A program made the translations under genes and the position numbers. A stretch of DNA of 64,000 nucleotides from Tretioscincus oriximinensis (taxonomy: Eukaryota; Chordata; Lepidosauria; Squamata; Gymnophthalmidae): assembly GCA_022410635.1 (NCBI GenBank), contig JAJVDF010000003.1:6811799-6875798 (forward strand), written 5' to 3'. The notes beneath the pieces were generated by a model that saw nothing but the letters and a program-made list of their open reading frames with translations, did not search any database and had not been told where the DNA came from. Shown here one piece after another: positions 1,271-40,995 of this stretch; the first letter of the stretch is position 1; every line of letters begins with the position of its first letter.

Positions 1271-1523
1271 TACTGTGTTTTCCCCAAAATAAGACAGTGT
1301 CTTATATTAGTTTTTGCTGTCAGACAATATCTTATTTTTACATGAATAAGATTTGCATTAGGATAATGGATAATCAATTTGGAAAATCATGAATGTCCTT
1401 ATCATCATCTCCTTGTTCAACAAAAAAATGAACAGTATTGCAGTTTTTGGCCACCAGGGGAGCTCATCACAAACAAAAACTCTGCTACGTCTTACTTTCT
1501 GGTTGCTAAGACTTACTTTTGGG

Positions 1524-2015
1524 GGTCCAGCAAAGGGGCTAGTAGCACTTAGAGACTAACAGCTTGGATAGTTTGGATAGTTTGAAGACAGGACTAGACA
1601 GATTTATGGACACCAAGGGTATAAATGGGTACTAGGATGGATGTCTGGATGTTGCCTCAGGGATGGAACAGCAAGGCTCCTGAAATACCATTTGTAGGGA
1701 GTCGTGAACAGGTGCGTATTTTGCTTTCCTCTGTTCAGACTGTCCAGGTGCATCTGGTAGGCCTCTGTGTGAGGCAGAATGCTAGACTAGATGGGCTCTG
1801 GCCTTGATCTAGTATAGCTCTTATGTTTTTATGTAACAGGAGAAAAGTGGGTGGCATAAGCTTTCATAGACACGTCTACTTCTTCAGATGCATCTGAAGA
1901 AGTAGACGTGTCTACGAAAGTTTATGCCACCCATTTTTCTCCTGTTAGTTTCTTAAGTGCTACTAGCCCCTTTGCTGGAGTTTCTACTGGACTAACACAG
2001 CTATTGCTCTGAAAT
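1524..2015. mobile_element. Hairpin (inverted-dimer) repeat, copy 1, split by CR1
   Basis: An 11-bp direct repeat 'ttacttttggg' flanks it (1513-1523 and 2016-2026), which looks like a target-site duplication. The inner arms 1835-1890 and 1891-1946 are inverted copies with about 3 mismatches in 56 bp and no spacer. The outer arms are 1528-1561 and about 1944-1978. The left arm is interrupted at 1562-1834 by a CR1 3' fragment. Related copies lie at 43968-44150 and 52759-52952. Confidence 0.7.
1562..1834 (+). mobile_element. CR1 LINE 3' fragment (innermost layer)
   Basis: It carries the CR1 3'-end signature seen many times in this window: 'ggatgtctggatgttgcctc', 'gcctctgtgtgaggcagaat', 'agactagatgggctctggcc', then a 'cttatg'-type tail. 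It separates two halves of the hairpin repeat arm. The bases 'taac' occur at both junctions, compatible with a very short target duplication. Confidence 0.75.
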
Positions 2016-2112
2016 TTACTTTTGGGAAGCGCCTTGTATTTAGCAATTCAGCAAAATCTCTACTACAGCTTATTTTCAGGGGAAAACTTATTTTTGGGGA
2101 AACATACTGGAT

Positions 2113-3339
2113 AATGCTGGGTATTTCACCATAAATATGAATTTGTCTTAATTTATTAGTCCATTGAGTGATGAACTTTTATGTCCGTTATTTTATATTA
2201 TATTGATTGAGTTGTTAGATTTTTTTATGCATCACTTTACCCAAACCCAGGCTGATGGACAATCCTATTCAACAATAAATCTAATATAGCAAGAAAAAAG
2301 AAAAATATTAACTATAAGTAAAAACTGTACAAAACACCTGAAACATCCCAAAGATAAGGGGGGAAAGCCTGTATTATTCAACAATTACAGAAGTGAAGGT
2401 CTGGAAAGAGTTGCAAATACCTGCTGTGTTTTTGTTAATATATCTGTAGACTTTTTTGTTCGTGTGAAATTTTGTTGATTTTAGATTTTTCAGGATAGAA
2501 TTCTGTGTATCCTTAAGGATTTTCATTATTTCCTTGGGGGGTGTGTGTGTTGTTGTTGCAAACTCTCTCCTAAAGTCATTTGGTCTTCTTCAGTAGCACC
2601 ATTGAAACAAATTTGTTGCCTATTCTGTTCGAGTTTACACCAATTCGCAAGCAATACCATTTTTGTGGTTTTTCTATATTTTTAATGCAATTGTCGGACT
2701 TTATTGCAATTCTCATTGAGAATAAACAATATAGAAATTTTCCCCTACTTTTCTCCTTATTGAAATATTCCAGAAGAATGGTTTCCACTTGAGTACTAGG
2801 CAACACTTTGAAGTATAAATGCCTTATGTGTACCACTCAGTCTCAGTCCTTCTTGGTCTGTTTCCTAAACGTGTCACCTTGTTTGGACAGCAAAGAAGGT
2901 TCCTTTTTCTGTCCCTACTTTTAAGGGAATAAATACGGCTTTTGTTTGGTTAGGACCACAGATTCCTTGACTGGCAGTTGTCTTCTCCTGTCCAGCCAAG
3001 TATACAGACCTTGTAAGACTTGACTGCATGGCTTTCCATTCCTCATAAGAGCTCATCCCTCCCATATGAGGAATAATCCGTGTCTTTTGGCAGTAATTAA
3101 GCCGGGCGTCTCCCCCTCTGCTGTGAGGGACGATCCGCCTCAATCTTATACTCGACCTCCCTCTCAATCACAAAGAGAGGGTTAAGTGTTGCTATGCTTC
3201 TCCGTCCTTTACTGCAGACACAGCAGCAGTCCAGGTGCTGCTGGCTGTGTTGCAGAGTTCAGAAGGTGCTCTTCTTTTTTGTTTAAGAAAGACTGTGCCT
3301 GCCTAGTTCAGGAGCTGTTGACAAAACCCCAGCTACAGG
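2113..3339. other. Intronic sequence, possible degraded DIRS 5' end
   Basis: No exon is recognised. From about 2870 onwards the sequence leads directly into the decayed gag start at 3340 and could be the eroded 5' terminal region of the same element, but no matching inverted terminal repeat was found. A short near-palindrome built on 'cctcata' lies at about 3040-3072. Confidence 0.3.
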
Positions 3340-3890
3340 ATGGAAGAATATCAGCATTTTTCCCCACCTCCAGCACAAGGGCCAAATTATTTCAGCGTGT
3401 CAAACGGAGATCTGTGCCCCAGCTTTTACGTGATTCAATCTTTAATGTTCTTTCCTCAATTTCCGGAATGACCCAAACCGTACAGACTGCAGGTGACAGC
3501 TGTGTTATAGTCAACTGAGGCAGCAAAATTTTCAGACATACATACCATGCCTCTTCAGAAACACGTTTCTTCACATTAGGGGGTTTCAGTAGCAAATCTC
3601 TAGTAGTCTGATTAAATTTAAAATGCAAAAGAAGCCCTCCCCCCAAAAAAGACAGGTGTCCACCCTATCCCTCCTCCTTCAAATCTTCCCCCCTCCTCAC
3701 ACACCATACCTAGAAAAAAGAAAAAGAGAAATCACAGATGTAAGAAAATTTCAGAAGACAAATTCCTTAGCTCTGGATCCTTTAGGAACAGATAACATGG
3801 ATTTTCTTGAATCTGTCCATTCTGCAGGGAATTCCTATCATTTATCTAACAATCTACTTCTCCCTGTACTTAGTTGTTTCTTAATTACAG

Positions 3891-4893
3891 ATCACCTTCA
3901 CTTGAAGATCCTGGCACTTCAGCCAGTCTCCAGCCCACTAAGGTTGCAGATGGGGATGCAGAAGAAGCCGAGACTGAGAAAGGCATCACTGCAGATGAAG
4001 AAGTGTCTGCTAATTCCAGGTTTTTACTTGTGGAGAACTTGAATCCTCTTCTGGATGAAATTGCAGACACCTTGAAAATTCAACGACCTGACACCGTTTC
4101 TGGAGAGTTGGCTCAAGCAACTCAGAATTCATTGATTGATCCTCCCAAGGGCCTTCCCCTTCCCATTCCCAAGACCATTCAGAATGTAGTACTAGCAGAA
4201 TGGCAGGAGCCAGGTTTTTCTAATCGCCTTCCTCCTATTCCCAAGAAGCTTTTTTTCTGTTCTGAACCAGCACCTAACTTGTGGACTGTTCCATTGGTGG
4301 ATGCTCCTATCTTAGCTCTTCAGGGTGGGAGGCGAAGTTATAATTTGCATAAGAAGATTGAGAACCTTCTCAGGCAGTCCTTTCAAGCAGATTCATTAGC
4401 TACCAGAATATCAGCCAATATATCTCTATCTGCTACAGCTGCCTTAAAATGGTCGGATGATATCATGAATGATGATAGTATGTCAAAGGAGTCTAAATCC
4501 TCTATGGAACAGATTAGGAAAGTTCTGGCTCTTTGTGTTGATACAAGCCATGATGCCTTGCAACTCACGGCCAGAGCGATGGCTTACTCTACTGGAGCTA
4601 GAAGGGCCCACTGGTTGCGTAATTGGAATGTGAATTTCAATATCCAGCATAAATTAATGAGTCATCCCTTCAAAGGGAAATACCTTTTTGGTGATGATAT
4701 TTTAAAAAATATTCTAGTAGAAAACAAAGATAAAAAAAAAGTTATGCCATCAGAACCCTTGGGATTTCAGCAAAACAAATGTGTTACTCGACGCAAGAGA
4801 AGCAGGCAACCGCGCTCCTGGAGGCATCCATATTTTCTCAATCAGCAACAAATTGGAGGTTTTCATCCTGCCAACTTCACGTCCCATCCATGA
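3891..4893 (+). CDS. DIRS gag-derived frame, candidate alternative terminal exon of ZNF638
   Basis: A 334-codon frame ends in TGA at 4891-4893. It is gag of a DIRS1-like retrotransposon, the same fold as the LAP2alpha C-terminal region. The key blocks are I-P-K-T-I-Q ... L-A-E-W-Q, R-L-P-P-I-P-K-K, R-A-M-A-Y-S-T-G-A-R-R, H-P-F-K-G-K-Y-L-F-G and K-K-K-V-M-P-S, each with a counterpart in the element at 35031-40995. There is no credible start codon: the frame is closed by TAG at 3871. The acceptor is excellent, with a branch-like 'tatctaac' at 3843-3850, a pyrimidine-rich tract and 'attacag' ending at 3890. The exon would start with the third base of a codon, exactly like the ZNF638 exon at 9006. 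AATAAA lies 304 bases after the stop. The N-terminal third (about codons 1-45) is acidic, the middle is helical and the end is basic. Expression is inferred, not shown. Confidence 0.6.
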
Positions 4894-5196
4894 TGGGAAG
4901 TTGTGCTTGTTTCTGGCAGCCACATGCACCTATTTAATTAAGCTAAGAGAGGTGGGCCCTTGGGTGTTACAGAAACTATAGATTAGAATTTTAAAGTTTA
5001 TCCAAGAGATAGAGGTTACGTTTTCTTTCAATCCTTTTAAACTGATGTAGAAAAAGGTTTGTCTGACGACAGTGGTCCAGTTGATAGAAATGGAGTCAAG
5101 AAGGTGGCTCTGGGGAAAAGTATGGTGAAATTTATTCTGTCCTGTTTGTAGTGCATAAGAGGAGAATGGACGGCAATGTTGCATTTGAATTTTCTC

Positions 5197-5202
5197 AATA
5201 AA
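5197..5202 (+). terminator. Poly(A) signal after the gag-derived frame
   Basis: AATAAA lies 304 bases downstream of the gag stop codon and is followed by T-rich sequence with 'tgatgttttg'. It would end a transcript using the 3891 acceptor. By itself the hexamer is weak evidence. Confidence 0.4.
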
Positions 5203-5409
5203 TTTCCTTAAAATGATGTTTTGAAATGGATTCATTAAATATTCAGGGTTTTCTCTCTTTGCTGTAAGTTATTACTTGATTACCTGTTCACCAGAGTCGC
5301 AGCCTTCTACCTTTTTGCTGTGGAAACACTATAAATTTAAGGACTTCCCCTTTTGTCTTACTGCAACCCCTAGGATGATTATTAGATGGTAACACAGAGA
5401 AATTTTGGT

Positions 5410-6130
5410 TAATAGGTTTCCTAGCCCAGGAGTGGGCAAACTTTTATATCAAGAGCCATTTTGTGGCCATCCACCCTTCCCAGAGTGACTTGGGGGCTAC
5501 ATGGCCATGCCCTTTCCTGAGCCATGCCCTTTCCCGAGCCACAACCTCTTCTCAAGGTCCGATCAAGTCAAGGCGCACATCTCCAAGAGCAGTTCCGGAC
5601 TTCGGCAATGAGCATTGTGGCTGTGCCCAGGAGCTGTGTGCCACGTGCCAACATCAGGTTTTGGTCTGGCTGCTGCACATGGCCTGTATACAGCCACAGG
5701 CAGGTGGCCGAGGCAGGCAGGTTGCCAACCCTCGCTGCTGATGTCCAGAAATGCTCTTGGGAGTGTGCATTATGTCTGATTGAGACATGGCGTACACCCC
5801 CAAGAGCAGTTTTGGACATCGGCAGCGAGTGCTGGTCGCCTGCCTGACTCAGCCACCTGCCTGTGGTTGTGTGCCCACGCTGTGTTCCACTCGCCAACAG
5901 TAGTTGGAGCACAGCGTGCACAGCGTCAGGCAGGCTGCAGATGCTTGCTTCTGACATCTAACTGCTCTTAGTGGTATACACCATTCTGTACATTTTAGGG
6001 AGGTAAAATGGGGGAAATCCCCCCCCCCCCGGGGTTCTTCTGGTGATGGCAGAGCCGCACTCAAGTGTCCAAAGAGCCTCAGGTGGCCCACAAGTCACAT
6101 TTTCTGACACCCCCCCCAACCTAGCTCATG
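5410..6130. repeat. GC-rich repeat with internal inverted copies
   Basis: The edges resemble imperfect inverted ends (about 5428-5450 and 6085-6115). Inside, blocks around 'caagagcagtt' and 'gacatcggca' recur in direct and inverted order (5580-5605, 5735-5765, 5795-5830). This makes the apparent open frames on both strands repeat-driven. A C11 run lies at about 6019-6030. Probably a degenerate DNA transposon; family unknown. Confidence 0.35.
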
Positions 6131-9005
6131 CTTATTTAGCTGACTTCCTCACAACTCAGAAAATGGTCTAGCCCACTGCAGACTTGGTTTCTTAATAAAC
6201 CTAGAACAAGAGTTATTTCATTTTGAATCANATCATTAATCTGGAAGTTAAAATTGACCCATCTCTTCCAACCCGCAGAGATTTGAAGATCTCAAAGCTT
6301 TAATACTATACATTAGGCTTATGAATAAGAAGGATACCTTTAAGATGGCTTCCTGTCTAGGGAAGATAATTCACAAATTATGAATGTGTTTTCTCAAAGA
6401 AATCAGTGATTCACGATTTGTGGCTGTGGAAATTTTCCAATGTTTTGCATTGATAGTCACTGCGTGCCTGCTGGAAAGATGTCATGGCTGTTAGGGAACA
6501 GGTTTTTTTCCTTGAAACCAAGTTAGCAAACTGGGAGAAAGGGAAAGAGAGGCCCGAGACTGAGACCTTCAGAGATGCATAAGATGTGGATGTCTCAGGC
6601 ATGGAGGACATCTGGATAAGGAAAAGGGACAAATTCCATTGGTTGGGAACATTTCTTAGAAGACAGGCCTGTAGCTTGTAGAAAATACTCTCCTCCACAA
6701 GTGGCAGCGAGGAAGCTTCTTGTAGTGGATGATTTGATTATTAGAAATATATAGAGAGGGTTTTGGGACAAGTATGTAGGTGCATAGTGATGCTAAGATG
6801 CTAGATGCAAAGTTCGCAAATACCCCAGTATACATTCTGGCCTATCCACACTTTTCTAATCCTCCCCTATCAATCTAGGCTGAACTTCACCAGATGATGT
6901 GAAAACAGATCAGGATGGGCCTGCAGGGAAAAATAAATAATTCATGGACCCAGTGACATCTAGATAAGCTGGTAGACAATGCTGGGAATGAAAGGTTTAG
7001 ATTTAATGGTCACTGGAAAATATATTTGGACAAGTCAACCTATACAAAATGAATAAATTATACTTCAATTAAAATGAAATCAGACTAGTAGTTCTTAATA
7101 ATTTAAAAATGTCACAAAGTAGTTTTAAAACTGATTTCAAAGATAAAGCTAATTGGAATGTGGCATTTTTTTACAACCCTTAACTTTTATAACTTAACAT
7201 GGCAAACATTCTCCAGATTGTTAAACTCCTAGGGTCTGACCCTTCAAAATCCAGAGTTAAGGGTGTCCTGACTTTACTGCAGGCAGGAATCAAGAAGGCC
7301 CTACAGTTTAACAGCGTCATGTTCTGTGTGTAATTTTAGAACTCACTAAAATTGAGTGTTTCTTCTCAAGAATGGAAATGATGTACTCACTAGTAGTTCA
7401 TAACATCCCATCTTAGGACTAGCATTTGATTCTGATGGTCTTATGGAAGAAACATTTGAATCTTTCAGGAGAATCTCCTTTAAAGTCCTGTCTTGCAGCT
7501 AGTTAACTAAGCTTGGTGTGGTGGTTTTAAGGAGTCTTTTAGCGTTGTGTGGTCTCAAAAAGCTATAAGCTAGGATCTAAAAGCTTATTCGAGGGGCAGA
7601 TGTTGCATTTTCTTTCAACCCTTTAGTTTGTTGAAGAATCTGGCTGCAATGGACCAGTTGATAGAAGGTTTTAATGGAAACCCTGCAAGGTTTCAGAAGA
7701 ACCTCCGATTTGCTAGCTCTCGTGATTTCTAAGCTCTTTTGTGATTCTAAAACTAGATCCTACTTCATGAACAAGGTTAGACTCTATTTTTCACAGGGAT
7801 CAAGAAATCATTTGCTTTGTTTTTCCCCTAAATCAAAACATAGAAAAATGGCATTGTTTGGATATAAGAAGAACATTAAATAGTGATCTATCTAGAACCA
7901 AGAGCATGATAAAGATCTGTTTAATTTTCATCTGGGCAATCTTGCTATGGAGGCATTCTCCATGGTCATTACTCCATGGATTAAGGCCTAGATATCCCTC
8001 ATTTATCAGGCTACTCATCCAAGTCACATTCAGACACAAAAGGTCAGTGTCCACCACAGTGCGTTCACCAACAATGCATCAACCCAAGAAAAGCAAGACA
8101 GCAGCGTGATCAAGTTCTTAATTTTTTAAAAAAGTATTACCATATGGATCTATTCAGGATAGCAGATGTGGCCTTCGGATGAAGAGTCTCGTAAAAGGTG
8201 TTATGGTAGGATAAAGTGTTTCTCTTGCTTTTTGAGGGAGGTCAGGGTGGTTCTTTTTATTTTATTTTTTTCTGTCTACAATGTGGCTGTAGTATATCCC
8301 GTTAAGTGACAGTTCTTCTGAAATCTTCCAAGAGTGAAATATTGTTACTCATCGGCTTTTCCATTCTAAAAGATTGGAAGAATTGAAATAATTCCAGGTG
8401 ATCCCACCCTGGAATTATTTATCATTGTTGGTGTTTTGATTTTCATTTAGACTAGACAAACATTTGACTGCCCACATTTGCTCCTTAGTCAGTGGATTGG
8501 CACGTGCGTTAAATTCACACTGCCTACAGATACTTCCCTATAGGGAAGACACACAGCTTAGAGGAAGAGTCAGGTAAAAGAACCTTCTACAAACTCCAGT
8601 GCCAGCTTTGTCTATGCATTCACTCTAGCAATGTCACCTAATCACATCACCCACAATATCAGAGGTACTTTCACTTGCTCATCCTCTAATGCATGCATGT
8701 CCAACTTTGAATGACTAGTAAGGGGGGCTTGTAGCACCTTAGAGACAAAAAAAAAAAGGTAAGCAGCAGGAGCTTCCCTTGGCAAATCTACTTCTTCAAA
8801 TAAGTATCTACCTCTTCCTGACTTCCTGACTAGGGATCTTTTGGAGAATAAAATATGACAATGAATTTATTTTAAAATATGTGGATTTGGGAGGTGCTGG
8901 TACACAATTATACCAAATTGGTTCTAGATTTTTATTTTAAGTGGAGTTAAAAATGTATAGAAGAATAAGTGGTTTTAATATTTGCAGTGTTTTTTTGTCT
9001 TCTAG
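6130..9005. other. Intronic sequence
   Basis: It contains the recombinase-like remnants described under the decayed DIRS element (7250-8100) and a partial arm of the hairpin repeat at about 8723-8815 ('ttgtagcaccttagagac' ... 'ctacttcttc'). The rest is AT-rich and holds no exon I can support. Confidence 0.35.
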
Positions 9006-9067
9006 GAAAGATGAAGTTAAAGCTGCAGCAAACCCAGTCATCTCAAATATGTCTGTTCCAGTTACAT
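9006..9067 (+). CDS. ZNF638: ZNF638 exon (window exon 1)
   Basis: Acceptor 'tttgtcttctag' ends at 9005 and donor 'gtgagt' starts at 9068. The first base completes a codon from the missing upstream exon, then it reads K-D-E-V-K-A-A-A-N-P-V-I-S-N-M-S-V-P-V-T and ends with one base of the next codon. The phase joins to the exon at 10784 as a Ser codon. Low-complexity linker before the first RRM. The assignment rests on splice sites and phase more than on sequence recognition. Confidence 0.7.
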
Positions 9068-11934: not shown

Positions 11935-11978
11935 ATATGCCTGAAGATACAAAGAGCACAGATGTTGATGGATCTAAA
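11935..11978 (+). CDS. ZNF638: ZNF638 exon 3 (small)
   Basis: 44-bp exon between acceptor 'cttttccacag' and a consensus donor 'gtaagt' at 11979. With one base from the previous exon it reads D-M-P-E-D-T-K-S-T-D-V-D-G-S-K and ends in phase 0, matching the start of the RRM exon at 13733. Confidence 0.85.
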
Positions 11979-15614: not shown

Positions 15615-15755
15615 GTGGATACAGAAAACCTTCCCTCGCAATTTGTACTGCTTGGTAACTTGCCAGACGAAGGATATTCTGAGCTTGAAATACTTTGTGT
15701 GGGACTTCGGTTTGGACGGGTGGATCATTACATGGTGATGGCAAACAGGAAGAAG
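15615..15755 (+). CDS. ZNF638: ZNF638 exon 7, RRM2 first half
   Basis: 47 codons, phase 0 to 0, acceptor 'tttctgcattag', donor 'gtaaat'. It contains RNP2-like Q-F-V-L-L-G-N-L-P, helix 1 (Y-S-E-L-E-I-L-C-V-G-L-R-F-G) and beta 2 (V-D-H-Y-M-V-M-A-N-R-K-K). This pairs with the exon at 18369 as the second matrin-3-type RRM. Confidence 0.95.
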
Positions 15756-27282: not shown

Positions 27283-28336
27283 GAAGAGGAGCTTTCTCCG
27301 TTTAACTTGGATGAATTTGTTACCATGGATGAAGTGGTGGATGAAGTGGACTTGCCTGTTCAGCCACGAAAGAACCCTTTGAGGGGTAAAAGGAAGGGGC
27401 CTATGAAAAAAGTCCTTTGCAACGAGCCCAGTGCTAAGCGACAGAAGGATAAAAGCTCAAGTGCACATGTGATAGAGACTGAAGTCTCCTTTGTCACTCT
27501 GGATGAAATTGGAGAAGAAGGAGATGGAATGGCCCAGGAAGACCTCTTAAGATTGGAAAGTCTACCAGACTCCCAGACACTGGTGCCTGTAGATGAAACA
27601 GAGGAGGAGGAGGAGCTGCTTGAGGTGATGCAAAACCCTCAGTCACTAGTTACTTTAGATGAAATATCAGAGCAGGAGGACCCTACTGCCCAGGAAGCTA
27701 TCAGAGAGAGCCCTTGGTCCGAGCCCTTGGTAACAGTGGATGAAATTGGAGAAGCGGAAGACCTATCTCTAAATAAGCCTCCATGTTTCAAGGAGATTGA
27801 AACTTCAAGACCCAAGAAAAATAAAAAGCAGGTTATTGAAGATCCTGAAGATTTTCTTTCTTTCCAGATCCCAGAGGATCTCAGCACTCTGGTGACAGTC
27901 GATGAGATCCAAGAGGACAGTGATGATCAGCCATTAGGAACATTGGATGAAGTGACAGAAGATGACGATCTCCTGGCTGATTTCAATCGCATGAAAGAAG
28001 AACTGAATTTTGTCACAGTAGATGAAGTTTGCAGTGAAGAGGATGAAAAAGAAAGTAATGATGTGCTAATTACCTCAGACATGGCCAAATCAGTTCCCAA
28101 GACCACAGTAGATAAACAGGTTTCTGAAGCAGAAAAGGATGTGGTACCCTCCACAAAACATGAAGCAGTTGGACATGGCAGGGAAGAGGCATTGGAAGGC
28201 ACTGAAGTCAGTAAGGAACATACCAAAGATGCTGAAAAGGAGACAGACAAGCAGGAACCTGTATTTCTAGAGAAGGAGACGGAAACATCAAGAAAGACCT
28301 CAGAGACAGATGCAGGGTCTGTGCAGCCATTGCCAG
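27283..28336 (+). CDS. ZNF638: ZNF638 acidic V-T-V-D-E repeat exon
   Basis: 1,054 bp, acceptor 'cttcattttag', donor 'gtatga', phase 0 to 1. It carries the NP220 signature: repeats of the pattern [L/F]-V-T-[V/L]-D-E-[I/V]-x-E-x-x-D. I count eight, starting near 27316 (F-V-T-M-D-E-V), 27490 (F-V-T-L-D-E-I), 27580 (L-V-P-V-D-E-T), 27648 (L-V-T-L-D-E-I), 27727 (L-V-T-V-D-E-I), 27889 (L-V-T-V-D-E-I), 27936 (L-G-T-L-D-E-V) and 28009 (F-V-T-V-D-E-V). A basic patch (K-R-K-G-P-M-K-K ... A-K-R-Q-K) follows the first repeat and looks like a nuclear localisation signal. The human protein is described as having nine such repeats. The function of the repeats is not established. Confidence 0.96.
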
Positions 28337-30146
28337 GTATGAATTTCATTATTTTTTAACAGGAATCAGCCACATACTTGAGAAAGTCATGATACTGCAG
28401 GAAATCTAACTGCAGAACTCACTTTGGACTGTGCACAATTGTCAGGTAACAAGAAGAGCAGTATGTGAGATGACCAACAATCTCCTGGTAAGATTTATTT
28501 TAGAAATTTATATTCTGTATCCTTCATTAGCAGAACTGAAGGCGGGTAACAACAGCACCAAAAAAACATATAAATTATTGAAACATATTTAAAATAGCCC
28601 TCCCTCTCTTTGGCCCACCCACTCTCCCTCCCTGGCAGGACAAAAGAAGTAGTGTTAACCAGATGTCCAAAGGAAAGCTTTCCCAGTGTCTGGGGCTATC
28701 ACTGTAAAGGCCTTCCTGCATTTCCTTAATTATGTTTACTACATTGAGATTTCTCCTTTCTCCAAAGAGCTCAAAGGAGCAAGCATTATTTGCTCCTGGC
28801 CAGTCACATTTTTGCATTAATCTAATAAAGTAGATTATTTATTTATTGTTATATTTTTAAGTTGAGTTGAAAAGGTACAATAAGAGCTTTATTTGTACAA
28901 GGAGTTTGTGTATTTAAAAATGTCACATTAGCCCAAATTGTATAAACAGAGCAATTGAAACCAAAGTAACTTCAGTTTGGGGAAACTTAGATGAGAAATA
29001 GTTTTTCCTAAGAGGAGCCAAAACCCAGACTGCCTGGTGGTGATTGTTATGGGGAAGTATGTTGTTTATTGGTTTCAGTTATCTCAGGCAAGTTAACAAT
29101 AAAAACAAGAATACAATATTGACATAAAAGTCCCCCTGAAAGTGGAAAGTGGAAGCTGTCACTGTCTTTGCAAAGGGGGTAGAATGGTCATGCTGCTGTT
29201 ATGGACTGACTATCAATCAATATCAGGGAAAGGAGGGGATCTGGTAGACAGTCTTCCCAAAATCTGATGTGGCCCTGCTTCCCCTCCCTCTAGATACTAG
29301 ATGTAGCTGGATTTTCCCTGGCCATCTTAGGTAATACCCCCAATTAACCTTTAGGTTTCTGAATGGCTCCTGCCCTTGTTTTTTATTTCGTAAATCGTAA
29401 TACTATTAATAATATTCCTGACTTGCTAAAATCTCACTTAAGTTAAAAAAGATTATCTGAAAATTGTTGCTTTGAGGGATTTATATTTAGCCAAAATAGC
29501 TAATATTTGAAGAAAATGGCCATTCCCATTTTTTATTAAGAATGCGTTCAGAGTTTACTTTTGTGGCAGTTTCAAAAATTGTACATTTGTTCATATGAAT
29601 TGTGCCTCCAGATCTGGCAATGATTTTCCTGACTACCAGTGCTAGTTTCCCATTGGTTAATTTGTTGCCAAGATTCGCACTTACATGGTTGGCTTCTAAT
29701 CTATTAGCTATTGCTCCTGAGGACAGGAATGTCATCCCATCAATGCAAATAAAGCATCAGGAAGGAACATGGCAGAAAATACCCAAGAAGCACCCTTAGG
29801 CTTACAAAATCCCATCCAGGGGGGTGGGGGAAAAATTACATTTATTGCCAAATGTTTTTTAAAAAATCAGTATGAATAAATAGTAAGCAAAGTGGGCCAT
29901 AAAATATCAATCTGGACATACCCTAAAAAGTACCCAGTATACTATTCTTCCAATCCGGATTTTATATGGACATAGAAATTATTTATTTATGTTTCTATAT
30001 CACCCTATACCCAAAGGTCTCATCTAATCTAATCTAATCTGGTTTTGATTGAGACTGATTAGCTTTTACTGAAAATAACAATAATTTTAAAAAATGTAAA
30101 GAAAAGTAAAGACTTTTTTGTCTCATGAAATTTCTATTGAAAACAG
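28337..30146. other. Intron of ZNF638
   Basis: Mostly unique-looking AT-rich sequence. A short 'tctaatctaa' tandem occurs at 30022-30040. No exon or named repeat can be supported. Confidence 0.4.
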
Positions 30147-32712: not shown

Positions 32713-32831
32713 ATTTTGATTTCCTTGTCCCAAAAGCTGGCTTCTTCTGTCAGATCTGCTCCTGTTTTTGTGTGGATGAAACATCTATGAAAACGCACTG
32801 CGAGACCCTGCTTCACCAACAAAATATGGAG
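32713..32831 (+). CDS. ZNF638: ZNF638 exon 15, C-terminal matrin-type zinc finger
   Basis: 119 bp, acceptor 'ttcctttcag', donor 'gtagat'. It encodes D-F-D-F-L-V-P-K-A-G-F-F-C-Q-I-C, with a complete C-x2-C-x12-H-x5-H zinc ligand set: Cys, Cys, His (in M-K-T-H-C) and His (in L-L-H-Q). This is the matrin-type U1-like C2H2 finger that ends NP220 and matrin-3. All four ligands are present. Two extra Cys sit inside the loop (S-C-F-C). Confidence 0.97.
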
Positions 32832-35030: not shown

Positions 35031-35171
35031 TGTTCACAGAGGACGGAACCGGGAAAGGATGTCGGACAAATGGGTTATTCCTAGAGACCCCCTGCAGGAA
35101 GCGACAGAACATTAAATGGACTCTCCCTACCCATGACCCCCTGCGATAGGGACTAGCTCCCCAGTCTTCTG
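35031..35171. repeat. DIRS left inverted terminal repeat
   Basis: It begins 'ttcacagaggacggaacc' and runs to 'ctccccagtcttctg'. It is the inverse of 40846-40995, with only a few differences across the inner ~110 bp ('ggacaaatgggttattcct', 'gaccccctgcaggaagcg', 'taaatggactctccctaccc'). Confidence 0.9.
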
Positions 35172-35550
35172 TCGTTTCTTGTAGGAAAGGCAGTAGTCTC
35201 CTGACCCAGCTCTGTTTTCCGACTATTCTTATGGACTTTGATCTTCGGTGTGGGGGTGAGTCGAGGATTCCTCCCCCCTCTGGTGTGGTGTGTCCCTCTG
35301 GGCTCAGTCGGTCCACCCCCAGTGACGATCGTGGGCCCTGTGAACTGTTGTCGCCCCCCCATCGGACTGGGAAATTCGGGCTTTTCGGGCCTTGATTGAA
35401 GTTACCAGGGGTGGCCTGCCTCCCTCCCGGGTCGCTCGCCCCCCTCATTGAGTCCCCCCCAAGGGAGTGTGGGACAGAGAGTGCCTTGGGATCACCTCCC
35501 GTCGCTCCTCCATACAATAAAATCGATCGTCCAGAGGGCTTTGAGCGGGC

Positions 35551-37530
35551 GATGGAACCGTCCACCTCAGACATCACCCCGGCCGTTAAGCCACCAAGGA
35601 GGGGTTTGGCCGCGCAAAAGCCCTCAACGGCCGCTGATCACTCTGTGCAGGCGCCAGCCCGCGCAAAGCAAAGGCCCAAGGGCTCAAAATCGGCGCCTGC
35701 ACCGTCCGCTCCTCTGTTGGCTGGCAGCTCAGCGGGCCCAGCCGGAAGATCTCTGCATGCAAGTCTGCCTCCGCCCTGCCCCTGTGACTGACGCGGCGGT
35801 GAGCAGCATGGCTCAGCGCCCTCCCCCGCAGACACTCCTGCCAGCCCCGCCTTCCAAGAGCCGTCCATGGTGCCTGCCGATATCAACAGCCTGCGCCTAG
35901 TAATGGAGGGGATGCTAGACTTCCTTAAGAAATCAGCCTCAGCGGCTCCGCAGCCCACTGCCGCCCCTCTCCTCCTCGATCTTTTTACTCCTGAATCAAC
36001 GGAGGATTCTGGATCAGAGAGGGGACGGGCACCTCGCCCCCATAAGAGGCGCCATTTGTCTCGGGAGGGTACGTCCTCGCCCCCCCCCCCCGCGATCGTA
36101 GGGGCACCCGCCGTGCTAAGGCCTCGCCCCGCACCCTCAGGGCCCCCCTTTAGCGCCTGTGCCCACCCCGGATACAGGAGCGGTTCCTAAGAGCAGGCAC
36201 TGGGGCTCATCCAAAAGGAAGCTCTCGCCCACGCCTGAGCCCCCAAGGGCTCCACCTCATCTGTCTCCTGTAAGGGTGTCTCAGCCTCGGGCTAATCCAC
36301 AGGCTTTCAGGAAGGCGACTTCTAAGACCAAGCATCTGGAACTGGTTTCCCTGTTGGAGGACCTCCTCCCTCAGGGGCGGGGCTCTCGGAGTATGACCCG
36401 CGGGGGTCCAGTGAGGAGGAGGACATCCCCGATCACCCTGGGGACCCCTCACCTGATGATTAGCTGCCAGGGGCCTTCCAGGAACTCTTTGCTGAGGACC
36501 TGGATGAGGCCAATTCTGCTGAGCAACCGGTCTCATGGCAGGTTGCTGTTCCCCGGCTTTTTCCGCTTGAGGAATTTCCCAAGCTTCTAACCAAGATGTT
36601 GGCGTCATTGAGCATGAAGCCCATTCAGTCCTTGCCGGACGACCTAGCCGAGGAACTGACCAACCTGATGCTCTTGCCTGTCCAGCCGCAGCCAACTGCC
36701 CCCTTTCCAAAATCCTTCAAGAGAGAAGTGTTGAAGGAATGGGAGACGCCCAATAGGGCTGCTAAAATACCGCCTATCCCCCGCCGCTTCTTTGCAGGGG
36801 ACATGGGGGAGCCCGATCTCTGGAGGGTCCCCCAGTGGACGCAGCGATATCGGCCCTGATTTCACAGTGTGTGGCTCCCAAGCCAGGGGACACACCACTC
36901 AAAGACCAAGATAAAAAATTGGAGACTATGTTGAAGAGAGACTTTGAAACTCAAAGCCTGATCACCAGATCCTGCTCTTACATGTCTGTTTGCTAGGGCT
37001 GGACTCAAGTAGTCGGACGCTCTCCTGGTGGCAGGCATCCTCCCAGCACACGCAACTCGACCCTTACAGTACATTAGTACTAGCATTCTTGGCTGACGTG
37101 GCTTTTGATACTGTGTTACTTAGTTCAAGGGCCATGGCATATAATGTAGTGGCAAGGAGAGCTCTTTGGCTCCGCTTTTGGAACGTGGATCCAACTTCAA
37201 GGGCGAACCTTGCTGCCTCTCCATTCGTGGGTGGCCTCCTCTTTGGGGAGGAGGCGTTGAAGGATATTCTTGTTGAGTCAAGGGGCAAAAAGAAAGTTAT
37301 GCCCTCTCGCCCTGCTCATCAGTCGTCGTCAGCTGGAGGTACGGAGAAATATTCATCCCCGAGAAGAGGTTTTGGTTTTTCCTGGCCCTACTTTCCGGCA
37401 AACAGATCTCAGAGATCCTACTCTAATTACAGGCCCAATTGGAATAGGCCTAAATCCCAGGGACCACCTGCTGGACAGCAGCCCTCTGGAGGTAGAGGCC
37501 CTCCGTTTTGTCCACAGAAACGTGAATGAG
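35551..37530 (+). pseudogene. DIRS gag, degraded
   Basis: The start ATG is at 35551 (M-E-P-S-T-S-D-I-T-P). The frame is interrupted by TGA (about 35789), TAG (about 36462) and frameshifts near 36190-36390, 36840 and 36995. It is Pro/Ser/Ala-rich at the N-terminus and basic in the middle (P-H-K-R-R-H-L-S-R). The conserved core is I-P-P-I-P-R-R-F-F, S-R-A-M-A-Y-N-V-V-A-R-R, S-P-F-V-G-G-L-L-F-G and K-K-K-V-M-P-S, ending in a Gly/Pro/Arg tail at 37530. The core blocks match the intact gag segment at 3891-4893, which identifies that segment. Confidence 0.85.
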
Positions 37531-37574
37531 TAGTCCAGATTGGGGGTAGACTGGCCCTCTTCGCCCACGTTTGG

Positions 37575-39417
37575 GCCTTTTCGGTTTCAGACCCTTGGGC
37601 ACGGAGTGTTGTGGCCCACGGGTATTTCCTTGAGTTCGCTGCCACCACCACCCCTCCCAGGTTTCTTCAATCTCTGTCCTCTGCTGGCTCTCACAGGAAA
37701 CGAGAACTCATGCATGAAGTGAATAGACTCCATTCTATCGGAGCCATTGAACCAGTCCCCTCCCCTGAGAGGGGTTCGGGGGTCTATCATTCTTTTTTGT
37801 TATTAAAAAAACGTTCGGGTGGGTGGCGTTCAGTTTTGAATCTCCGTTACGTTAATAAATTTATGTTGATAAAAAAGTTCAAAATGGAAACGGTGCAATC
37901 AATTCGTATGTCAATTCGTCCCTCGCAGTTTCTGGTGTCCCTGGACCTCTCATGCATACTTACACATTCTTATCCATTCTGCGCACAGGAAATACCTCCG
38001 ATTTGCCCTGGGCTCCTCCCACTGGCAATTTCGGGTCCTCCCCTTTGGCCTCTCCAGCTCCCCCTGGGTCTTCAGTAAGATAGTTGACCAACTGATTGGC
38101 CTTCTTAGGTTGCGGGGCCTGAACATTTATGCCTATCTAGACGACCTCCTCTTGGTCGCGGATTTGGTCTCTGAAGCCCACTCTGCAGCAGCCATCGCCA
38201 TTCAGTGTCTGGAAGAGCACGGTTTCGTCATCAATAGGGAGAAGAGTTCCTTATCCCCTTCTCGATCTCTTAATCACCTTGGGGTCCATTTTGACACTGA
38301 GCGTTTCCTTGTCAGCCCTGACTCGGAAAGAGTGTCTGCCTTAGTGGACCTAGCCATTTTTTGCAATATCACTCAGGCCCCGTCCCTCTCCACCCTCGCC
38401 AAATTGTTAGGCAAGATGGTGTCAATTTACGACCTCTGTGCCTGGTCCCGGTTCCACTCTAGGCTGTTGCAATGGTTCCTACTCCCCTATGCTCGCCTCA
38501 TAGCGGCCAAGGTTCCCAGGTGTATCCTGCTACCGCCCGAGGTCCGGTCTTCCTTAGTTTGGTGGTCTTCCCTGGTGACCCTGTCCTCGGGTGTTCCTCT
38601 TTCGGTCACGGAGAAAGTAGAGGTTACCACAGAGGCCAGTCTGTCGGGCTGGGGGGCCCACTGCTTGGGCAGGACAGCCCAGGGTCTCTGGTCCCCAGAC
38701 CTCGCTTTCCACTCTATCAACTGGCTAGAATTGAAGGCAATTCAACTCGCCTTAGTAGCCTTTTCCCACCTGATCCAGCGGTCTCATGTTTTGATTTGAA
38801 CAGATAATTGCACAGCAAAAGCCCATGTAAACAGGCAGGGTGGGACTAGATCTAGGGCTTTGATGGGTCTCTCAACTGAGATCTTTACGTGGGCAGAAGC
38901 TAACATTTTATCTCTGTCCGCCTTACATATCCAGGGATCGCTAAACACAGCAGCAGATGCCCTGAGTCGTCACTCTCTGCCGCCAATGGAGTGGTCTCTC
39001 AACAAGGAGGTCTTCGAGTCACTGACCCATTGGTGGGGCCTACCTGTGATGGACCTTTTTGCCTCCCCGGACAATGCCCAGCTACCATGCTTCCTGACCC
39101 GGTTCCTTCACCCACAGGCCGAAGGGACAGATGCGCTCACACATTCATGGCCTCCAGGTCTACTTTATGCTTTTCCTCCCACCCCTCTGCTGCACAGGTT
39201 CCTGGCCCGTCTACGGGACTCTCCTTCAGCTATCATCATTGCTCCCTTCTGGCCTCGCAGGCCTTGGTTCCCCCTTCTACGCAGTCTGGCAGTCTCAGAG
39301 CCGGTTCACCTTCCAGTTCGTCACGACCTCCTATCACAGGGAGGGTTCAGCCACCTCGACCCAAGCTGGCTTTCTATGATTACGTGGAAGGCCAAAGGTC
39401 ACAGTTCCGTAGACTAG
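37575..39417 (+). pseudogene. DIRS reverse transcriptase and RNase H, frameshifted
   Basis: The first part (37611-about 37960) has the fingers region I-G-A-I-E-P-V-P, G-G-W-R-S-V-L-N-L-R-Y-V-N-K-F and the first catalytic block S-L-D-L. The frame is lost near 37955 and resumes by 38060 (S-S-P-W-V-F). The catalytic Y-L-D-D is at 38134-38145. The RNase H-like segment (T-E-A-S-L-S-G-W-G-A-H and N-W-L-E-L-K-A-I-Q) ends at a TGA near 38797. After it come the C-terminal blocks L-N-T-A-A-D-A-L-S-R-H and M-D-L-F-A-S-P-D-N-A of the frame at 38860-39417. The enzyme would convert element RNA to DNA in a functional copy. Confidence 0.88.
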
Positions 39418-40460
39418 AGTACCCGGAGGAGGTGATCTCCACCCTGGTGTCTGACAAGAGGCAATCTACACTCAGGGTGTACAGTTCAACCTGGAGGGTT
39501 TTCTGCTCTTGGGCCTGTGCCTCTGGCCTGGATCCTTTCTGCCCTTCTCTGGAAACAGTTCTTATTTTCCTTCAGCGGGGGGCCGCCCAAGGTTTGGCTT
39601 TCAGTACTTTAAAGCGTCACGTGGCTGCCCTAGCCTCTGTGTTGAACATAGGGTCGACCACCCCTCTTTCCTCTCACCCACACATTCAGAAGTTTCTACG
39701 TTCTGTTAAGTTGGCAAGACCTCCAGTTGTCCACCGCTTCCCAGTTTGGCATCTCCACACGGTTTTAAAGGCGCTCACCTCGCCCTTTGAACCTTTGGAA
39801 GAGGCATCCCTCCTTCACCTTGCTTACAAGACGGTGTTCCTCTTGGCAGTGGTTGCCCCTCGCAGGGTCTCAGAACTAGCAGCCCTGTCTCTTCACCCTC
39901 AATGTTTCCAAGTTTCCCGGGACATTATTTCTTTACGGACAAATCCCACCTTTAGGCCAAAGGTGGATTCCAGATTCCTCAGGGATGCATTTCTTCAGGT
40001 TCCTTCATTTTGCCCTAACCCGAAGTCCCCGTTAGAGAAGTACTGGCACACCCTAGATGTGCACAGGGGCCTTTTGATTTGTGTTAAGCGCACCAAGGTT
40101 TTCCGTAAGACAGAATCCTTGTTTACCCTGTTCCACCCCGTTAAGAGAGGTCTACCGGCCTCTGCTAAGACCATTGCCTATTGGGTAGTGGAATGTATTA
40201 AGCTAGCCTACCGACTCTCAGGGAAGTCTCCTCCATCAGGGCTATGCGCCCACTCCACACGCTCGGCAGCTGCTTCTTGGGCGTATTACAACAGGGCATC
40301 TCTAGAAGAGGTTTGTTTGGCAGCTATGTGGAAGAACCCTTCCACGTTCACCCGCCACTACAAACTGGATATCTTCAAATCCAGTAGAGGCTCCACGGGT
40401 AGGGTGATTCTGCAAAATATCCTCCTGGGTTCGGGTTCTGAGCTACAGGACTCCCCTTAG
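38991..40460 (+). CDS. DIRS tyrosine recombinase (open frame)
   Basis: The frame is open from 38991 to TAG at 40458-40460; the first ~110 codons overlap the RNase H frame, so the real protein probably starts later (around 39300). The core begins with an SAM-like N-terminal domain (Y-V-E-G-Q-R-S-Q-F ... S-T-L-R-V-Y-S-S-T-W). All catalytic positions expected of the family are visible: Arg in A-P-R-R-V-S-E-L (39861-39866), H-S-T-R (40251-40262) and Tyr in T-R-H-Y-K-L-D (40359-40361). It would integrate the circular DNA intermediate. It is the only element frame that is unbroken, and it overlaps RNase H in another frame, as is usual in DIRS. Confidence 0.9.
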   Translation: MVSQQGGLRVTDPLVGPTCDGPFCLPGQCPATMLPDPVPSPTGRRDRCAHTFMASRSTLCFSSHPSAAQVPGPSTGLSFSYHHCSLLASQALVPPSTQSGSLRAGSPSSSSRPPITGRVQPPRPKLAFYDYVEGQRSQFRRLEYPEEVISTLVSDKRQSTLRVYSSTWRVFCSWACASGLDPFCPSLETVLIFLQRGAAQGLAFSTLKRHVAALASVLNIGSTTPLSSHPHIQKFLRSVKLARPPVVHRFPVWHLHTVLKALTSPFEPLEEASLLHLAYKTVFLLAVVAPRRVSELAALSLHPQCFQVSRDIISLRTNPTFRPKVDSRFLRDAFLQVPSFCPNPKSPLEKYWHTLDVHRGLLICVKRTKVFRKTESLFTLFHPVKRGLPASAKTIAYWVVECIKLAYRLSGKSPPSGLCAHSTRSAAASWAYYNRASLEEVCLAAMWKNPSTFTRHYKLDIFKSSRGSTGRVILQNILLGSGSELQDSP

Positions 40461-40496
40461 TTCCCGTCCGGGTCTGGGATTGCTCTGGTACGTCCC

Positions 40497-40590
40497 ATTT
40501 GTCCGACATCCCTTCCCGGTTCCGTCCTCTGTGAAACGAACACCTGAGGTGGTGTTCAAGAGGATGGAGAGGGAAAGGATGTCGCCCCTC
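40497..40590. repeat. DIRS internal complementary region
   Basis: 40497-40537 ('ccgacatcccttcccggttc', 'cgtcctctgtgaa') is the inverse of the left end of the element. 40541-40588 ('acctgaggtggtgttcaaga' onwards) is the inverse of the right end. The junction 'tgaaacgaacacct' therefore records the two ends brought together, the template thought to guide circle formation. Confidence 0.85.
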
Positions 40591-40845
40591 CCTTTTTTGG
40601 GGGGGAGTCCTGACCTCAAGCATCTAGTTTTTTGTTCCTGTTCCTTATTGGTTACTGGGGTTGTTATCTTTGGTTTCACTCTTGCATTGGGGGCAAGTTA
40701 TCTTTGAGACTGGTTCCTTGTTGGTTTCAAGGACTNGTTGGTTTTGGCAATATATTCAATGCTGTTGTGGCCTACCTCTTTATTTCTCTGGGTCTAGGAG
40801 TGTCTAGTTTTCATGATTAACAATTCCTTTCTCTACCTTTCTCTC

Positions 40846-40995
40846 CAGAAGACTGGGGAGCTATTCCCTATCGCAGGGGATCATGGGTAGGGAGAGTCCA
40901 TTTAACGTTCTGTCGCTTCCTGCAGGGGGTCTCCAGGAATAACCCATTTGTCCGACATCCCTTCCCTCCCCGTCCTCTTGAACACCACCTCAGGT
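40846..40995. repeat. DIRS right inverted terminal repeat
   Basis: 'cagaagactggggagctatt' to 'gaacaccacctcaggt'. Inverse of 35031-35171; the outermost bases differ between the two ends, as is usual for DIRS. Confidence 0.9.

Follow-up and report, generated by a model that had tools for sequence, protein, structure and literature searches.

Abascal et al. describe exons of the LAP2alpha type in TMPO of mammals and ZNF451 of placentals only, and at neither locus did they see one in other vertebrates (PMC4495291). They inferred that a poly(A) signal arrived with the colonising sequence (PMC4495291). LAP2alpha forms dimers through its gag-derived C terminus, and efficient association with chromatin depends on this dimerisation (PMC11417337). 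ZNF638, the gene considered here, belongs to the silencing machinery. NP220/ZNF638 first binds DNA and then recruits HUSH to retroviral DNA (PMC8621569), ZNF638 represses endogenous retroelements (PMC11910234), and it was among the top matches for TASOR proximity without virus (PMC7532188). Among the matches listed from the open-licence literature, we found no report of a LAP2alpha-type exon in ZNF638.

Here we describe a lizard locus at which an old DIRS insertion lies in a ZNF638 intron, with its LAP2alpha-type gag domain probably kept as an alternative 3' terminal exon that would be spliced to ZNF638. Judged from its sequence, this is probably a real, old and selected terminal exon, and the third capture of LAP2alpha type after mammalian TMPO and ZNF451.

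The host gene is ZNF638

We analysed a 64-kb window (C3:6811799-6875798) of a 1.54-Gb assembly and also read the 40 kb upstream of it, where negative positions count back from the window start. The preliminary description had named ZNF638 as the host gene, and matches at both ends of the locus agree. The exons of the first RNA recognition motif (RRM1) lie upstream at -4779 to -4643 and -4406 to -4275 and match PDB 6sxw, Zinc finger protein 638, with an E-value of 1.2e-23 (Pfam RRM_1, E 9.7e-7). The gene continues farther upstream with a long exon, which has a predicted start, and an RS-rich exon. Within the window, predicted ZNF638 exons follow on the plus strand at 11935-11978 and 15615-15755. 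The latter is predicted to start RRM2 and has a weak match to the Matrin-3 RRM (E 0.029).

The open frame at 27283-28356 (plus strand) holds the ZNF638 acidic-repeat exon and matched 71 proteins at an E-value of 1e-3 or better; those with names were mostly zinc finger protein 638, including bird ZNF638. In a tree of 25 rows this exon fell into a six-row set with Gekko japonicus and four other rows (support 100/99), at a point where long branches meet; a squamate source is likely on this placement. The acidic repeats are followed, in order and on one strand, by the C-terminal matrin-type zinc finger at 32715-32831, which is 74-78% identical (tblastn) to turtle and falcon ZNF638 and matches Pfam zf-U1 at E 3.4e-4, below the cut-off of that family. 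NP220 is known to bind DNA and HUSH, and the finger concerned is presumably this C-terminal one.

A gag-derived candidate terminal exon

The candidate alternative 3' terminal exon spans 3891-4893 on the plus strand. It comprises 333 codons of DIRS-type gag with a LAP2alpha domain and a TGA stop, and its first base is the third of a codon. The gag-derived frame behind an acceptor noted in the preliminary description is thus real. The frame is open from stop to stop at 3874-4893, closed by a TAG at 3871-3873 upstream and by the TGA at 4891-4893. Its first in-frame ATG is residue 192, so translation at full length requires an upstream exon. Dinucleotide shuffling of these 999 nt (2000 replicates, three frames) gave a longest open stretch of 218 codons (mean 82), which places the observed 333 codons beyond chance.

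The assignment to a DIRS-type gag resembling LAP2alpha, also proposed earlier, is supported by Pfam PF11560 (LAP2alpha; E 4.7e-13, 49.6 bits against a curated cut-off of 25), by PDB 2v0x (LAP2alpha; E 1.5e-10) and by gag matches in the same genome. The LAP2alpha core motifs RRxxWL and PFxG..LFG are retained in the exon. An AlphaFold model of the exon was poor (mean pLDDT 43.8; 3 sequences). A structure search with it returned 2v0x_B (E 1.8e-3) and 2v0x_A (E 4.5e-2) as top PDB matches, with none of 172 matches at E ≤0.001; we read this structural match only as pointing in the same direction.

No relative of the frame was found among proteins of 183-583 aa at E 1e-3 or among those of 550-1750 aa at E 10, in searches that depend on exact shared five-residue words. 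Both searches also failed to return LAP2alpha itself, and the database includes bird, turtle and gecko pieces of ZNF638. These empty results count against a widely conserved, annotated isoform. A search of viral contigs likewise gave no relative.

Splice acceptor, reading phase and poly(A) signal

Directly before the frame, a branch-like site, a pyrimidine tract and an acceptor AG (3889-3890) can be read at 3843-3890 on the plus strand. By an approximate weight matrix, the acceptor at 3891 scores 3.7, compared with 3.6, 4.4, 6.7 and 8.1 at the probable ZNF638 acceptors 27283, 15615, 9006 and 32713. As many as 153 of the 4684 AGs on the plus strand of the window score at least 3.7, and a competing, out-of-phase acceptor at 3874 (score 3.3) lies 17 nt upstream; taken by itself, the site could have arisen by chance. 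The acceptor emphasised in the preliminary description is present and in phase, and its strength by itself is unremarkable.

The ordinary ZNF638 exon at 9006-9067 (plus strand) is open in two phases, only one of which chains open to 11935-11978 and 15615-15755. This sole open chain uses the phase that had been given earlier as common to the gag exon and exon 9006. That phase requires a preceding exon ending with two codon bases. Since the last exon of RRM1 ends on a whole codon, a linker exon is required between RRM1 and 9006. A predicted linker at -2620 to -2562 ends with two codon bases and yields a lysine at the junction to either 9006 or 3891; it was chosen for its make-up among 44 candidates of that phase and has modest splice scores (1.9 and 2.8). 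Via this predicted linker, the gag exon shares its reading phase with 9006, the exon that ordinarily comes next in the host gene and with which it would compete for the same predicted donor.

The predicted 3' UTR extends over 4894-5230 on the plus strand and contains, 304 nt after the gag stop and in agreement with the preliminary description, an AATAAA at 5197-5202 that would serve as poly(A) signal. The hexamer occurs 79 times on the plus strand of the window and so is not beyond chance on its own. It falls on the Asn-Lys codons of a decayed reverse-transcriptase (RT) motif, LNKF; at the same RT place, a young DIRS element in the window reads GTT AAT AAA TTT. This RT motif was recognised in 19 of 30 scanned loci, and AATAAA lies on it in 15 of the 19, which are related copies and not independent. 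At the level of signals, the gag exon has the layout of one large terminal exon: an acceptor, a stop and a downstream AATAAA. An AATAAA on conserved RT codons some 300 nt behind gag offers a concrete origin for the poly(A) signal inferred by Abascal et al., and such a built-in signal suggests why the route of gag capture repeats.

A decayed DIRS element surrounds the exon

The DIRS origin of the exon is evident from RT and tyrosine-recombinase remnants alongside it, both above controls. The RT remnant lies at about 5100-5377 on the plus strand. When 15 RT frames from the genome were aligned to it, the six best scored 74-83, and the best control of the top query (n=36) scored 62. For five of these six, the alignment lay within 5097-5377 and covered 83-86 codons, interrupted by 3-5 frameshifts and one stop; the top query extended into an insert farther downstream. 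The RT of the window's young DIRS element scored 50 (best of 246 controls 44), and once the penalty reaches 12 this alignment falls to 15 codons free of frameshifts. The recombinase remnant at 7173-8211 (plus strand) scored 122, compared with 53 for the best of 80 controls. Its event counts depend on the penalty: the default gave 11 frameshifts and 4 stops in 290 aligned codons, and the stiffest gave 1 frameshift and 2 stops in 116 codons.

The insert, at about 5440-6150 with limits set by eye, has inverted-repeat arms at 5690-5777 and 5783-5870 and is presumably hAT-like. The order, strand and spacing of the remnants fit a single DIRS element with this later insert. No inverted terminal repeats of the old element were recognised within 3000-9000; the element is old and they have possibly decayed. 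Two copies of a repeat of about 117 nt, 70% alike (K2P 0.38), are found at 4973-5089, near the RT remnant, and at 7560-7666, where the copy interrupts the recombinase remnant. A reading by eye of 4973-5089 as RT was not borne out by alignment.

Over the 110 codons upstream of 3891, the gag reading frame is interrupted by 9 stops. At 3618-3735 (plus strand) lies a weak stretch, basic, serine-rich and of low complexity, that is possibly a decayed N-terminal part of the gag. Aligned with the N-terminus of another gag in the genome (L014, described below), it scored 59, and 1 of 102 controls was as high. Of eight further gag N-termini, three beat their 13 controls and five did not, and three N-terminal frames of the young element gave nothing clear in the region upstream of the acceptor. 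The first residues of the exon align inside the L014 gag (SPSLEDP/SPSIKDT), and for this reason the acceptor probably cuts into the gag. These findings suggest that the intact part starts close to the splice site.

Age of the insertion and related elements

The exon has no close relative in its genome. Among 121 scored matches from 1983 candidates, the exon included, the best other match was 44% identical and the rest 33-42%. At the DNA level, a search that skips very common words found elsewhere only 75 nt at 76%. As there is no close copy in 1.54 Gb, the insertion is old. These values contradict the possibility, raised in the preliminary description, that the element is simply young, and the source family of the exon seems to be gone. 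Other gags of the genome do have near relatives: in a comparison of 30 of the 121 loci, all 28 fetched gags other than the exon and L014 had a neighbour at least 61.7% identical, and 27 of the 28 had one at least 80% identical.

The young DIRS element, at about 35033-40995, lies in the same gene, and its inverted repeats are 96-98% alike. Its gag matches LAP2alpha (E 1.6e-11), its RT matches RVT_1, and its frames are broken in places. Elsewhere, a predicted protein of the frog Ranitomeya imitator (P0069) has ZNF638 acidic repeats at its start and an RT piece at its end, the latter matching the window's DIRS RT at 37984-38085. Perhaps this protein is a faulty gene model or reflects another DIRS insertion in ZNF638.

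L014 is a second orphan DIRS gag, with 550 open codons on the minus strand at 1357-3006 of its own fetched stretch (G000:C271:460675-462324). It matches Pfam LAP2alpha (E 2.5e-8) and is the closest relative of the ZNF638 gag exon (42-44%) among the scored matches. At its start is an acceptor-like site (score 2.7) in the same phase as the ZNF638 gag exon. Over the 8 kb that follow, neither an RT nor a recombinase could be made out (scores 45 and 47). L014 is possibly another domesticated gag. For a host gene, no LEM match lay on its contig among six genome matches, and none was found by pattern within 100 kb. An exon-like zinc finger, which we take to be TUT-like, is situated on the same contig at about 477107 (L045), on the plus strand and thus opposite to the L014 gag.

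Selection and alternative explanations

The frame does not show the decay of its own flanks: it is intact, and the RT, the recombinase and the upstream frame are decayed. With an open frame inside a dead element and an insertion that is old, selection on the frame is likely. The alignment with L014 stays in register throughout, with 333 codons free of stops. An alignment with the gag frame of the young element at default penalty placed 2 frameshifts and 2 stops in 4403-4520; these vanish at penalties of at least 12 and are taken as a result of the query frame being off. In 105 three-way columns, changes confined to one lineage numbered 13 in the exon, 11 in the young gag and 23 in LAP2alpha, and the exon does not appear to evolve faster than gags under selection. 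Identity to L014 by codon position is 0.62, 0.69 and 0.46, with 29 of 59 fourfold sites equal, a divergence too great for a claim on dN/dS.

The exon could instead be a fossil free of selection: an old gag that by luck acquired no stop and never gave a stable product. We regard this as unlikely. It would agree with the absence of annotated relatives in the two protein searches, with the abundance of acceptors and AATAAA in the window, and with the strictest count of neighbouring decay (3 events in 116 codons), by which the chance that no event hits the gag is 0.017. However, the default recombinase count reduces this chance to 1.0e-5, and the lack of a close genome copy makes the insertion old. 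Moreover, when the frame was simulated under neutrality, with indels at 0.1 per substitution (3000 runs), it stayed open in 0.3% of runs at 0.05 substitutions per site and in none at 0.08.

A use of the exon outside ZNF638, by a transcript that starts within the intron from a first exon of its own, is very unlikely in our view. Some upstream exon is needed, as no start codon precedes residue 192, and agreement in phase with ZNF638 has a one-in-three chance. Still, the sense orientation, the phase identical to that of exon 9006 and the lysine at both junctions favour ZNF638 itself as the partner. It is highly improbable that the early end alone matters, with a truncated ZNF638 being made and the gag residues incidental. 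Such an end would cost the protein its RRM2, acidic repeats and finger, with an AATAAA in place, but would have no need for 333 open codons in which the LAP2alpha core is kept.

Proposed mechanism and meaning

The likely course of events, a captured gag serving as terminal exon of ZNF638, would have begun when a DIRS-type retrotransposon, by now old, landed in sense orientation in the ZNF638 intron behind RRM1. Its RT, recombinase and probably the gag N-terminus would then have decayed, with the C-terminal, LAP2alpha-type domain of the gag being kept. We infer that the acceptor is used and the frame translated into a functional product: the linker donor, predicted at -2562, would join 3891 instead of 9006, and the transcript would end behind the AATAAA at 5197. 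The product would run through the RS-rich region and RRM1 and continue with 333 gag residues. The preliminary description had predicted an isoform lacking both RRMs; its predicted loss of RRM2, the acidic repeats and the C-terminal finger holds, whereas RRM1, being encoded upstream of the gag exon, would be retained. By analogy with LAP2alpha, the gag domain would most likely self-associate and alter how the N-terminal half of ZNF638 sits on chromatin or RNA, and the isoform would then compete with or retune full-length, silencing ZNF638. As NP220/ZNF638 brings HUSH to retroviral DNA and represses retroelements, the gag of an element would have become part of an anti-element factor, and capture by a third gene, outside mammals, would point to a recurrent route.

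A more far-reaching reading is that the lizard gag has become an accessory of the silencer ZNF638. It might co-assemble with live DIRS gag and bring the RS region and RRM1 to the particles or cDNA of these elements, where it would act as a sensor or as a restriction factor of dominant-negative type. We consider this rather unlikely. If the reading is true, DIRS gag would have been captured repeatedly as an alternative ending of nuclear proteins, aided by the poly(A) signal in the RT codons just behind it.

Comparison with known systems

LAP2alpha of TMPO resembles the ZNF638 gag exon in having a DIRS1-like gag domain in one large 3' exon, an alternative to the ordinary C-terminus (PMC4495291). 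The TMPO exon has its own stop and poly(A) signal; the ZNF638 gag exon has a stop and an AATAAA (PMC4495291). The two differ in host gene and animal group, TMPO being the mammalian case, and stem from separate insertions. Splicing, expression and conservation are known for TMPO (PMC4495291), and the ZNF638 exon is a candidate read from sequence. The latter is also closer to lizard gags (44%) than to LAP2alpha (2v0x, E 1.5e-10).

With the live or young DIRS gags of its own genome, the exon shares the domain, the order of gag, RT and recombinase, and the AATAAA on the Asn-Lys codons of RT. Of 28 such gags, 27 have a neighbour that is at least 80% identical. The nearest to the exon reaches 44%, and both the RT and the recombinase beside it are broken. 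Mammalian RTL8 is likewise a gag-derived host protein, which enters PEG10 particles and lowers them (PMC11684626). Unlike the ZNF638 exon, it has a Ty3-type capsid and is a gene of its own, not the terminal exon of a silencing factor (PMC11684626). The action of RTL8 on PEG10 is a model for the restriction-factor reading alone.

The LAP2alpha-type isoform of ZNF451 has a host gene unrelated to ZNF638, and purifying selection was measured for its exon, with a dN/dS of 0.16 (PMC4495291). This isoform of placental mammals shares with the ZNF638 candidate a zinc-finger host gene, a terminal gag exon and the skipping of C-terminal domains (PMC4495291).
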